From the NCBI RefSeq assembly GCF_021173675.1, contig NZ_JAIHON010000011.1, forward strand, positions 186,001-250,000: a stretch of DNA of 64,000 bases, written 5' to 3'. A program made the translations under genes and the position numbers. This stretch comes from Streptomyces lincolnensis. GTDB lineage: Bacteria; Actinomycetota; Actinomycetes; Streptomycetales; Streptomycetaceae. Below are positions 22,393 through 25,102 of this stretch, in pieces. Every line of letters starts with the position of its first letter. Position 1 is the stretch's first letter. Under the pieces are notes generated by a model. It was given only the letters and a program-made list of their open reading frames with translations. It did not search any database and was not told the origin of the DNA.

Positions 22393-23508
22393 ATGCTGGA
22401 CGACATCAGAAGCGTGAAGCAGCGGGTCGAGGACGAGTTCCTGGACCGGCCCGGCGTCATGGGCGTCGACATCGGCTACAAGGAACGGCGTGGCCGCCGT
22501 ACGGACACCGTCTCCCTGCGGGTACTGGTGGAGGAGAAGCACGACGTGCCGCCCGAGCAGCGGGTGCCCGGCGAGATCGACGGAGTCGTGACCGACGTGA
22601 TCGAACGCGGGGCTCCCCGGTTCCTGGCGGACACCACACGCTACGACCCGCTGGTCGGCGGTATCAGCGGGGGCACCTGCGGCGGAGTACAGGGACTCGG
22701 CACGCTCGGCGCGGTGGTCCGTGACGTGGCCACGGGCACCCTCGGCATGCTCAGCAACTGGCATGTCCTGGTGGGCGGGGTCTCCGGTCCGCAAGGTCTG
22801 TTCGTGGCGCAGCCGGGACCCGGCGAGGACGGCGGCAGCTGCCAGAAGGACGTCGTCGGCCAGGTCACCAAGTCCGCGATCAACGAGTTCGTGGACTGCG
22901 CCGTGCTCCGCCTCAACACCGCGCGCCCGGCGATCAACGCCATTCAGGACTTCGGCCCCCTGCACCACCAGCCCACGATGGCGGCGCTGCTCGGCCATCC
23001 GGTCGTCAAGCGCGGCCGGACGTCATGGCTGACGTACGGCACGATCGACGCCGTCGACGCGACACTGACCCTCGACAACGCGGGTGCGCAGCGCGTCTTC
23101 CGCCGGCAGATAGGCATCTGGCGGGTGCCTGAGCGCAACCGGTCCTTCGCACTGCCCGGGGACTCCGGCTCCGTCGTCCTGGACCGGACCAACCGTCGGG
23201 TGGTGGGCCTCCTCTTCGCGGCCGGAAGGGGCACCCGGTTCACCGCGGAGGGTTCCTACGGCTACGCCAACCCGATCGCGAGCGTGCTGCACGCCCTCGG
23301 CGTCGAGATATTCGCCCCGAAGGTCAAGGAGAAGGAGCAGGAGAAGGACGACGAGAAGGACGACGAGAAGCTCCGGGACAAGATCATGAAGGAGAAGGAC
23401 CGGGACACGCTCGACGCCTCGGCCGAGGACCGGTTGAGCCGGCTGGAGACGGCTGTGGGAGATCTGCAGCATTTCATCGAGGCACGCGACCGGCGTGACG
23501 ACGGCTGA
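22393..23508 (+). CDS. Intracellular trypsin-like serine protease
   Basis: The 371-residue protein has no signal peptide. Residues 10-75 form a conserved lead domain (RPGVMGVDIGYKERRG and VSLRVLVEEKHDVP) of the kind found in Nal1-like bacterial proteases. A chymotrypsin-fold core follows with His124 in LSNWHVL, Asp168 in EFVDCAVLRL and Ser258 in LPGDSGSVV, so the triad appears complete. The end, about 310-365, is an extremely charged K/E/D-rich coiled coil (KEKEQEKDDEKDDEKLRDK). The next gene starts 11 bases later, followed by an ATP-grasp gene with a 4-base overlap. The substrate is unknown; the charged tail could be a partner site or a ligase substrate. Confidence 0.85.
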   Translation: MLDDIRSVKQRVEDEFLDRPGVMGVDIGYKERRGRRTDTVSLRVLVEEKHDVPPEQRVPGEIDGVVTDVIERGAPRFLADTTRYDPLVGGISGGTCGGVQGLGTLGAVVRDVATGTLGMLSNWHVLVGGVSGPQGLFVAQPGPGEDGGSCQKDVVGQVTKSAINEFVDCAVLRLNTARPAINAIQDFGPLHHQPTMAALLGHPVVKRGRTSWLTYGTIDAVDATLTLDNAGAQRVFRRQIGIWRVPERNRSFALPGDSGSVVLDRTNRRVVGLLFAAGRGTRFTAEGSYGYANPIASVLHALGVEIFAPKVKEKEQEKDDEKDDEKLRDKIMKEKDRDTLDASAEDRLSRLETAVGDLQHFIEARDRRDDG

Positions 23509-23519
23509 GCACGCCCGCG

Positions 23520-24221
23520 ATGACCTTCCTGGTGCTCTGTGAACCGGACGACGCGGCCGCCCTGTGGGCCGCCGACCGGCTCGCCGAACCGGGCTCACGA
23601 CAGGTACGCGTGCTGACCTCTCGTGAGCTGTCCACCGCTCACGACTGGGCCCACCGCATCGGGGTCGACGGCGTCGAGGTCTCCTTCACGGTCGGCTCCG
23701 GCGACCGGTTCCGCAGCGGCGGGATCCGGGGCACCCTCAACCGTCTGCGCGGAGTGCCGGATCTGCCCGCGCTGGCCCGGAGCGCGCCCGGTGACCGGCG
23801 TTACGTCCACGCCGAGTGGACCGCCTTCTGCCTCGGCTGGCTGCGCGGCCTGCCGGGTCCCGTGCTCAATCCGCCGGACCCCCGCGGCCTGGGCGGCTCC
23901 GGACGCGATCCCCGGGAATGGCGGGCGCTGGCCACCGCCACCGGCCTCGGGCGGCCCTCCGCCGCGCGAGAAGCGGGCGATACGTTCGAGGTGCTCGTCA
24001 TCGGCGACCGCGTCGTCGGGTGCTCCCCGGACCGGGCGACGACGCCCGCGGGGGCGGAAGCATGTCTGCGCCTGGCCGCCTCGGCTGGCACGCCCGTGCT
24101 CGGCATCACCCTGTCCCACCCCGGCCCGGCATTCGTCGCCGCGACGGAGTGTCCGGACCTCAGACACGGTGGCCTCCGCGCCGTCGCGGCCCTGGACCGC
24201 GCGTTGGGACGGCACGCGTGA
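23520..24221 (+). CDS. Unknown protein resembling the N-terminal half of an ATP-grasp enzyme
   Basis: I do not recognise a named family. The 233-residue protein contains GGIRGTLNRLRGVPDLP, then YVHAEWTAFCLGWLRGLPG and PVLNPPDPRGLGG at about residues 60-125. That pattern resembles the segment just before the ATP-binding region in RimK/MvdD-like ATP-grasp ligases. The C-terminal part keeps VLVIGDRVVG but lacks the D/E/N metal residues of a complete ATP-grasp site. It lies between a trypsin-like protease and a full ATP-grasp protein with tight spacing and is probably their partner. The ATG is fixed only by the frame and lacks a clear ribosome site. Confidence 0.7.
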   Translation: MTFLVLCEPDDAAALWAADRLAEPGSRQVRVLTSRELSTAHDWAHRIGVDGVEVSFTVGSGDRFRSGGIRGTLNRLRGVPDLPALARSAPGDRRYVHAEWTAFCLGWLRGLPGPVLNPPDPRGLGGSGRDPREWRALATATGLGRPSAAREAGDTFEVLVIGDRVVGCSPDRATTPAGAEACLRLAASAGTPVLGITLSHPGPAFVAATECPDLRHGGLRAVAALDRALGRHA

Positions 24222-25102
24222 TCCTGCTGATCGGCGAGGCGACGGACGGCCCGCTCGCCGCCGTACGAACGGAACTGGACCGATGCGGCGATCCGTATCT
24301 GCTGCTGGACCGGCGGGCCTGCACGGAGTCCGCGGTCACCGACTCCGACCTGGTCCTCGGCGGAGTGCGCCGGCCTCTGGCCGGGATCACGGGCGTACAC
24401 GTGCGGGACGCGGCGGGGCCGTCCTGCCCCGCGGCCCACCTGCTGCACCGTGAACTCGCGCCCTGGCTGGAGGTCACACCGGCCCACGTGCTCAACCGCC
24501 CGTCGGCTTCGGCGACCAACCTCTCCAAGACCTTCCAGTTGCAGGTGATCCGGGAGACGGGCTTCCCCGTGCCCGAGACGCTGGTCACCGACCGGCCCGA
24601 GGACGTCGCGGCCTTCCGCGCGCGGTACGGCACCGTGGTGTACAAGTCCGTGAGCAGCCGACGCTCCGTGGTCCGCCCGCTCGACGAAGAGGCGATGCGC
24701 CGCATCGACCGCATCCGCTGGTGCCCGACCCAGTTCCAGCAGTACGTCCGTGGTGTGAACGTCCGCGTGCACATCGTGGGTGACCGGCACTTCGCCACCG
24801 CCGTGCACACGACGGCCGTCGACTATCGCTACCCGGCCGCGCCGTCGGAGACCCCCGTGTTCTGCGGTGTCGATCTGCCCGCCGAACTGGTGCGGCGCTG
24901 CCATCGCCTCGCCAGGACGCTGGGCCTCCCCCTCACGGGCATCGACCTGCGGATCACGCCCGACGGCACGGCGTACTGCCTGGAGGCCAACCCGAGCCCC
25001 GCCTTCACCTACTACCAGTCGGCGACCGGCCAGCCCATCGCCCGGGCCGTGGCAGAGCTGCTGCGCGGCGCATCACGGACGGCCCGGGAGCCGAGCCTGT
25101 GA
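24218..25102 (+). CDS. ATP-grasp ligase (RimK/MvdD-like)
   Basis: The 294-residue protein has the ATP-grasp layout: a pre-grasp domain ending in HVLNRPSASATNLSKTFQLQ, the ATP lysine in VVYKSVSS (Lys143), the adenine-binding strand CPTQFQQYVRG, and the metal site GIDLRITPDG with CLEANPSPAF (Asp243, Glu256, Asn258). Enzymes of this type join a carboxylate to an amine through an acylphosphate, as in graspetide or amino-acid ligases. The GTG start overlaps the upstream stop (GTGA). No short precursor peptide gene is seen nearby, so the substrate may be an encoded protein or a small metabolite. Confidence 0.88.
   Translation: MILLIGEATDGPLAAVRTELDRCGDPYLLLDRRACTESAVTDSDLVLGGVRRPLAGITGVHVRDAAGPSCPAAHLLHRELAPWLEVTPAHVLNRPSASATNLSKTFQLQVIRETGFPVPETLVTDRPEDVAAFRARYGTVVYKSVSSRRSVVRPLDEEAMRRIDRIRWCPTQFQQYVRGVNVRVHIVGDRHFATAVHTTAVDYRYPAAPSETPVFCGVDLPAELVRRCHRLARTLGLPLTGIDLRITPDGTAYCLEANPSPAFTYYQSATGQPIARAVAELLRGASRTAREPSL

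Follow-up and report, generated by a model that had tools for sequence, protein, structure and literature searches.

A charged, tagged protein tail as the likely substrate of an ATP-grasp ligase and its ATP-grasp-derived partner

The tail of the first protein of a three-gene cassette in Streptomyces lincolnensis is likely, on sequence comparison, to be the precursor and substrate of the ligase pair encoded behind it, since that pair occurs together with a protein bearing a charged tail and a conserved end tag. The cassette lies within the window, the whole 64,000-nucleotide stretch of DNA that was analysed, and we consider it probable that it represents a self-contained module of wide occurrence, whose three genes serve to modify a protein's tail. 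What is new here is the likely precursor; the gene set itself is already published. A sequence-only reading of the window had reported no precursor peptide nearby, which is not supported: the protease's own tail is the likely precursor. It had also proposed a logic of peptide or protein modification, which is supported, with a chemistry that we infer. The features are as follows.

22393..23508, + strand: P1, 371 aa, serine protease with a NAL1-like trypsin fold and a charged C-terminal tail
23320..23406, + strand: P1 residues 310-338, a stretch rich in Lys, Glu and Asp, proposed cross-linking site
23419..23469, + strand: heptad helix SAEDRLSRLETAVGDLQ ahead of the tag, P1 residues 343-359, consensus ExRLxxLExxxxxL
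23470..23508, + strand: eroded tag HFIEARDRRDDG and stop (consensus HFIxxELRPDLSxGAL)
23520..24221, + strand: P2, 233 aa, pseudo-ligase, graspetide-synthetase fold without ATP-binding subdomain or metal ligands
24218..25102, + strand: P3, 294 aa, graspetide-synthetase-like ATP-grasp ligase, GTG start

The three + strand frames are open, the first two lying 11 bases apart and the last two overlapping by 4 bases, and the described layout of protease, half ATP-grasp and ATP-grasp is correct. P2 adjoins P3 in 70 of 72 loci and their frames overlap in 45 of the 70 adjoining loci (starts chosen by script), so the arrangement is not due to chance. The linkage of the genes is real, but the protease is not a constant part, since 48 of 68 upstream genes encode other proteins. 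The cassette ranges from actinobacteria to an archaeon; the species scan detects only those loci that have one of two short patterns, and a scan of the viral collection gave one locus (L115). A tblastn search of plasmids showed no match for P2, and P3 matched in 21 plasmid records; of five regions taken from these, the two with annotated features were read. One candidate locus (G292) was discarded for its seven internal stop codons. No Pfam family recurred in more than 2 of 66 same-strand neighbours (251 neighbour ORFs called), indicating no fourth constant gene among those neighbours. PADLOC on the window genes returned nothing for P2 and P3 and P1 at E 0.038, which does not favour a role in defence.

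In 67 of 70 ligase-pair loci, the upstream gene closes with a stretch rich in Lys, Glu and Asp and then the tag HFIxxELRPDLSxGAL. The search pattern for the tag requires F/Y, I/V and RP, so the conservation of these letters is by construction; positions outside the pattern are also well conserved (D in 54, L in 54, A in 50 and E in 46 of 68). L033 and L061 showed no clear tagged protein. The upstream frame of L033 ends SALRDEDP, which resembles only the end of the tag. On 50 locus-bearing genomes, the tag profile matched 47 places in 44 genomes, 46 of them within the locus as judged by eye from positions and contig ranges, and gave no match in the other 6. Presence is by construction for the 36 of these 50 loci that were in the profile, and the informative result is the rarity of the tag elsewhere; of the 14 loci outside the profile, 8 were matched.

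Two wider scans, like the one that gave G292, scored in each genome a subset of the initial candidates (19 of 115 in one instance), and their counts are therefore minima. Across 396 genomes of the phylum, tag matches were at least the window (outside the profile), G190 (in the profile) and one chance frame; across 392 genomes of the genus, a P2 bait matched at least 15, of which 8 were read out and 5 of those were new loci. The weakest P2-bait genomes (G044, G055, G142, G633 and G650) lay outside the read-out. All 8 read-out loci, including the five new ones, possess the tag, the charged stretch and P3. A tag match in G173 (E 0.003) was rejected: it lies in an antisense frame with RPDL 210 residues before the frame end and no charged window, and the only P3-profile match of that genome is partial and on another contig.

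We compared tag similarity with P3 identity across loci of different cargo class. The two were correlated (rho 0.51, 56 of 68 loci), and 0 of 1000 permutations reached a value as high. By this comparison the tag varies with the ligase rather than with the cargo. A literature search of titles and abstract openings showed no report of the tag or tail.

A tag profile built without the window matches the window's copy at 23422-23493 with E 3.9e-5, covering positions 2-25 of the 39 in the model, and the tag of this copy lacks the motif-defining RP and ends after RRDDG. The window tag is eroded, and the copy is therefore divergent or decaying. Decay, in which the protease may still work with a tail that is no longer modified, appears rather unlikely to us; it is a separate question and compatible with the module model. 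The shortened tag and the long P3 end branch (1.01 against a median of 0.28) are consistent with decay, as is the finding that a search of 100 related genomes at E 1e-40 or better gave just two P3s besides the window's own, with identities of 46% and 44%. Against it, the three frames are open, the charged stretch persists, the catalytic triad is kept, and the window P3 retains every column invariant in alignment A8. This alignment comprises 60 sequences out of 70 P3 references, a set from which L022 and L081 were already absent.

The P1 tail comprises 62 residues (310-371) rich in Lys, Glu and Asp, and was absent from the earlier reading. A charged stretch is present in 66 of 68 upstream proteins, the exceptions being L031 and L072, and in 1 of 66 neighbour proteins, which is also tagged. 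Lys is favoured over Arg even above 65% GC, with a median K/(K+R) of 0.83 in 44 proteins against 0.00 in 9 neighbours, in windows picked with Lys and Arg treated alike. Distances from Lys to acidic residues show main peaks at +1, +4 and +5 and smaller ones at +8 and +11, in regions that include some uncharged inserts; with several peaks, no single ring geometry is prominent. A heptad helix usually precedes the tag; its consensus comes from alignment A9 (49 of 64 tag windows), and in P1 the helix (344-356) falls in a low-confidence part of the P1 model. Charged repeat tails can also serve as helical spacers or disordered linkers, a point against a cross-linking model.

It is conceivable that the target of the enzymes is the tag itself (its Asp, Ser or Glu, for example), with the charged stretch serving simply as a helical spacer. 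Conservation of the tag beyond its search pattern would agree with this. However, the charged stretch accompanies the tag almost throughout with its preference for Lys at high GC, and makes up most of each stand-alone protein, and we regard the tag as an unlikely target.

The third protein had been described as a full ATP-grasp ligase, and this was confirmed, with PsnB as its nearest relative. A profile of 60 P3s matched PsnB, MdnC, CdnC, MdnB, AMdnB and PruB at E 5e-43 (PsnB) to 1.5e-27. Lys104, Asp243, Glu256 and Asn258 are present in 60 of 60 sequences of A8 and Lys143 in 59 of 60; we take these residues to have ATP- and metal-binding roles, as in ATP-grasp enzymes generally. The window P3 scored under every NCBIfam cut-off applied: 116.5 bits against 350 for TIGR04187 (GRASP_SAV_5884), 74.5 and 74.6 bits against 425 and 475 for the MvdC and MvdD equivalogs (TIGR04185 and TIGR04184), and 50.3 bits against 143.4 for the RimK family (TIGR00768).

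The RimK match, together with RimK structures matched at E values of roughly 1e-12 to 1e-11, would fit a ligase pair that extends the tail or C-terminus by amino acids, in the way RimK attaches glutamate, and forms no cross-links. We judge this slightly less probable still than action on the tag, because graspetide synthetases score far above RimK for P3 and because basic and acidic residues are about equal in the charged windows (ratio 1.03), which fits side-chain pairing.

P2 is a graspetide-synthetase homologue that, by its sequence, has lost the ATP-binding centre and the metal ligands. Its AlphaFold model (pLDDT 92.7) has the ATP-grasp fold, with VIA Z 20.3 to the microviridin ligase AMdnB, so the middle protein did not turn out to be unrelated to ATP-grasp. 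Its description as only the pre-ATP-binding half was correct as to origin but too narrow: P2 has no counterpart of P3 residues 128-180 and 196-215 and keeps remnants of the C-terminal lobe. The profile for finding P2s absorbed P3s during iteration, and P2 was compared with P3 from P2 rows alone (alignment A7, 64 of 70 P2s).

P1 contains a Nal1_C domain (Pfam, 38.9 bits, cut-off 26.1). The reported triad H124/D168/S258 is right, and it is kept in 20 of 20 NAL1-type upstream proteins, the window included. Elsewhere the upstream cargo is a subtilase, an M6-type peptidase, an Ig/TIG protein or little beyond the tail, and peptidases of several unrelated families are common. Clustering and Pfam totals over the 68 upstream proteins gave 19 with little besides the tail (the stand-alone tails L020, L037, L054, L070 and L079 assigned by hand), 6 of a Streptomyces type (no Pfam match in the one scanned) and 4 in the Ig/TIG cluster. 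The cargo class switches 19 times along the P3 tree, three unknown-cargo loci being counted as one class. From our reading of the sequences, L016 carries a lectin and L052 an M64 peptidase. Clean members whose short tail stands alone include the loci of Methylocapsa palsarum and Blastococcus (L056, L023).

The sequence-only reading knew of no described system with this set. The set is in print: by its description it corresponds to ATP-grasp branch 8 of Makarova et al. 2022 (PMC8939145), in which peptidases accompany a truncated ATP-grasp, and for which that paper, considering candidates of 150 aa or less, arrived at no predicted precursor. Branches 7 and 8 are read there as a peptidase supplying peptides to the ATP-grasp ligase. 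A peptidase that cuts other cellular proteins to feed the ligase, close to the earlier reading, would agree with the frequency of unrelated peptidase families, but many cargos match no peptidase and the same tail and tag occur on these and on the peptidases, and we consider it very improbable.

In our preferred reading, modification of the tail, P2 and P3 would form a heteromer, and P2, alone or with P3, would bind the tag, which would thus serve for recognition at the C-terminus much as a leader peptide does. Once P3 had phosphorylated Glu/Asp side chains of the charged tail, Lys side chains would attack them, and the resulting isopeptide (lactam) bonds would staple the tail or link chains to each other. 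In the window, the substrate would be the tail of the NAL1-like protease itself, which would not be a processing enzyme for a separate peptide. A graspetide precursor has a conserved recognition sequence with donor and acceptor residues; here a conserved tag and a Lys/acid-rich stretch are present, but the tag is C-terminal, the proposed precursor is a large protein, and recognition of the tag is putative. Tentatively, and with less confidence than in the module itself, we suggest a machine of general use in bacteria and archaea, by which otherwise folded, unrelated proteins would have their tails stapled through Lys-Glu/Asp isopeptide bonds under the direction of the tag, with an obligate pair of live and dead ligases. 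The folded cargos meant are proteases, Ig-type proteins and a lectin. A concrete substrate is thereby proposed for a ligase group published as having none. If true, graspetide-type chemistry would extend to tails of large folded proteins with a dead ligase as partner, the scope of RiPP mining would widen, as would the range of bacterial systems that cross-link proteins, and the tag could be a genetically encoded handle for protein cross-linking.

Among known systems, P3 shares fold and sequence, and P2 shares fold, with MdnB/MdnC/AMdnB, PsnB and PruB, whereas P2 lacks the ATP-binding centre. These ligases are known from small precursors. P1 residues 1-309 share the fold of rice NARROW LEAF 1 (NAL1; Z 28.2 over 289 residues, rmsd 3.3), and the charged tail and tag are additions of P1. 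The likeness to Makarova branch 8, matched by its published description, lies in the unrelated peptidase families and the inactive truncated ATP-grasp beside an active one, but the precursor proposed here is the tail of a larger upstream protein. Graspetide group 32 is described as having diverse neighbouring protease families, which are interpreted there as maturation or resistance factors (PMC13097080). A precedent for the proposed chemistry is corallotide, in which a graspetide synthetase forms Lys-Asp isopeptides in repeated KxxxD motifs (PMC13097080). Its group 15 (Carter et al. 2026) shares with the cassette a long precursor, repeated Lys-acid motifs, partner proteins and a TIGR04187-type enzyme, but differs, by the account given in the accessible part of that paper, in having no pseudo-ATP-grasp, no C-terminal RPDLS tag and no protease fusion, and in being confined to Corallococcus.

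The three open reading frames of the locus were laid out as follows:

22393-23508, + strand, open reading frame of P1, the protease
23520-24221, + strand, open reading frame of P2, the middle protein, after an 11-base gap
24218-25102, + strand, open reading frame of P3, the ATP-grasp ligase, overlapping P2 by 4 bases

This arrangement agreed with the sequence-only reading of the window. Just 5' of P1 (18486-22244) were two long frames, which we take to resemble PAS/SpoIIE-type phosphatase regulators. P1 was a trypsin-fold protease that scored above the cut-off of Pfam Nal1_C, and the predicted model of residues 1-309 matched rice NAL1 (Z 28.2, 289 residues, rmsd 3.3). 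The H124-D168-S258 triad originally noted was kept in all 20 NAL1-type proteins of the loci, the window counted in. Residues 310-371, where model confidence was low, formed a tail running from a Lys/Glu/Asp-rich stretch through a heptad helix with RLSRLETAVGDLQ to HFIEARDRRDDG.

P2 showed no family match in Pfam, NCBIfam or PADLOC. Its predicted model, built from 64 related sequences (mean pLDDT 92.7), gave PruB as the top Foldseek match (E 1.1e-9), and VIA aligned it with AMdnB (Z 20.3, 223 residues, rmsd 3.2) and PruB (Z 19.5, 220 residues, rmsd 3.0). Profile comparison with P3 gave a probability of 98.4 (E 9e-15), and a fold unrelated to ATP-grasp was thereby rejected. P2 is a pseudo-ligase because counterparts of P3 128-180 and 196-215 were missing and D243, E256 and N258, invariant in 60/60 P3s, were not conserved; the equivalent P2 residues were Asp in 25/64, Gly in 40/64 and Thr in 38/64, respectively.

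P3 was nearest to graspetide synthetases, with PsnB the top match by both single sequence and profile. The window P3 fell far under every curated NCBIfam cut-off among the families matched and is therefore a member of no family described there. Two further P3-profile matches in the window's own genome (G000:C23:289054-289977, E 1.1e-26; G000:C55:475897-476244, E 3.2e-12) are perhaps ordinary ATP-grasp ligases. On a Candidatus Megaera polyxenophila plasmid (L008:4001-7196), an ATP-grasp gene with 31% identity to P3 was followed by a hypothetical gene and two annotated isopenicillin N synthase dioxygenases.

The P2 search found one genome besides the window (G128) among 150 of the genus Streptomyces, and G190 among 396 of the phylum; a second phylum match was false, with seven stops. 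A species-collection pattern scan with three P3s gave 69 loci, many of them metagenome-assembled, which by titles and taxonomy came from Acidobacteriota, Actinomycetota, Pseudomonadota, Chloroflexota, Nitrospirota, Myxococcota, Planctomycetota, Verrucomicrobiota, Bacteroidota, a Leptolyngbya, WOR-3 and an uncultured archaeon. Adding L003, L006 and the window brought the set to 72 loci. In 70 of these P2 adjoined P3, the others being L066 (contig edge) and L081 (partial P3), and the two frames overlapped in 45/70. On a viral-collection contig (L115:1304-5915), P2 and P3 stood behind a 988-aa protein that ended in a tag variant, AFIRADERP; no charged stretch was found in this protein, whose start presumably resembles DUF6519.

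The upstream gene closed with the tag consensus HFIxxELRPDLSxGALxxE in 67/70 loci. The search pattern demanded F/Y, I/V and RP; at positions outside it, 68 proteins (window included) kept D in 54, L in 54, A in 50 and E in 46. A charged stretch preceded the tag in 66/68 upstream proteins compared with 1/66 neighbour proteins, the sole neighbour being a subtilase in L016 that was tagged as well. The tail-bearing upstream proteins (cargos) varied widely.

Cargo classes and counts
NAL1-type: 20
Little besides tail: 19
Cluster with subtilases: 9
Streptomyces/Kitasatospora type: 6
Ig/TIG cluster: 4
Cluster with M6 peptidase: 3
M64: 1
Lectin: 1
Others: 4
Cut by contig end (L049): 1

In three genomes the locus encoded two tagged proteins: L016 (3637-5613) had the subtilase next to a probable lectin, L051 (3300-4300, - strand) an additional protein on the opposite strand that we take to be LysM-like, and L070 (5640-7200) two charged tails in tandem. 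In the Streptomyces/Kitasatospora group (L029:8-6088, L038:53-6049, L040:21-6239), two large genes of about 720-830 and 1240-1270 aa lay 5' of the cargo; the L029 pair, which was scanned, had no Pfam match.

In the 396 phylum genomes, the tag profile matched the window, which is outside the profile (E 3.9e-5), and the G190 locus, which is inside it (E 1.9e-18). A third, marginal match was rejected: its frame ran antisense and had no charged stretch, and the genome lacked a full P3. Among 50 locus-bearing genomes, 44 were matched at 47 places; 36 of the 50 loci were in the profile, and 8 of the 14 left out were matched. By position against contig ranges, 46/47 places were inside the locus, and the other was in G574, whose P3 contig starts 305 bases ahead of P3. 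The six unmatched genomes had divergent tags (L025, L036, L069), no clear tagged protein (L033, L061) or a partial P3 (L081). With P2 as bait, 15 of 392 genomes of the genus matched, the window's genome and G128 among them. Regions were read out for eight of the 15, three probably being the L029, L038 and L077 loci and five new. In all eight, P2 and P3 were accompanied by a charged stretch and by a protein whose tag matched at E 2.7e-6 or below. All five new tags had LRPDL, and their cargos matched the M6-type protein of L069.

Cargo class changed 19 times on the tree of 60 P3s, counting three cargos of unknown type as one class (minimum 8, shuffled mean 34.8). Well-supported branches forced at least four changes for stand-alone tails, two for NAL1 and three for subtilases. 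Between loci of different cargo class, tag similarity followed P3 identity (rho 0.51; 56 loci, 1200 pairs), a value reached in 0/1000 permutations. One P3 clade (support 100/99) had tags without RPDL in 7/7, compared with RPDL in 52/60 tags elsewhere. Part of this correlation would be expected from shared descent of tag and ligase alone. The pattern shows a tail that remains with its ligase as cargos are exchanged.

The window tag had lost the RP motif and terminated at RRDDG. The window's P3 had an end branch of 1.01 (median 0.28), and just two other P3s, with 46% and 44% identity, reached E 1e-40 among the 100 relatives searched. The window copy is a member that has diverged or is decaying. 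The catalytic columns were intact.

In loci above 65% GC, with charged windows picked regardless of Lys or Arg, median K/(K+R) was 0.83 in 44/44 cargo proteins and 0.00 in neighbours, of which 9/39 had such windows. The basic:acidic ratio over all 67 cargo proteins with charged windows was 1.03. Adjacent KK and acid-acid residues hardly occurred (0.06 and 0.11 of the shuffled level). Lys-to-acid spacings were enriched at +1 (2.27), +4 (1.44) and +5 (1.69), and less strongly at +8 and +11. The Lys preference and one-to-one stoichiometry fit Lys-to-acid amide bonds; a spacer helix, too, would account for part of the pattern.

In this module the tail of a larger protein very probably serves as precursor. 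The sequence-only reading was partly right: the ATP-grasp relationship of P2 was supported, and the lack of a nearby precursor peptide was not. Makarova et al. 2022 (PMC8939145) described an ATP-grasp branch (branch 8) with peptidases and a truncated ATP-grasp, for which they predicted no precursor; they took proteins of 150 aa or less as precursor candidates, and tails on longer proteins would explain the precursor gap there. Neither the tail nor the tag was described in the titles and abstract openings of the literature searched. Carter et al. 2026 (PMC13097080) mentions a group 32 with diverse proteases, taken as maturation or resistance factors, and describes corallotide, whose repeated KxxxD isopeptides are a precedent for the repeated Lys-acid links that we infer in the present loci. 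The module is best read as a graspetide-type system of a new form.
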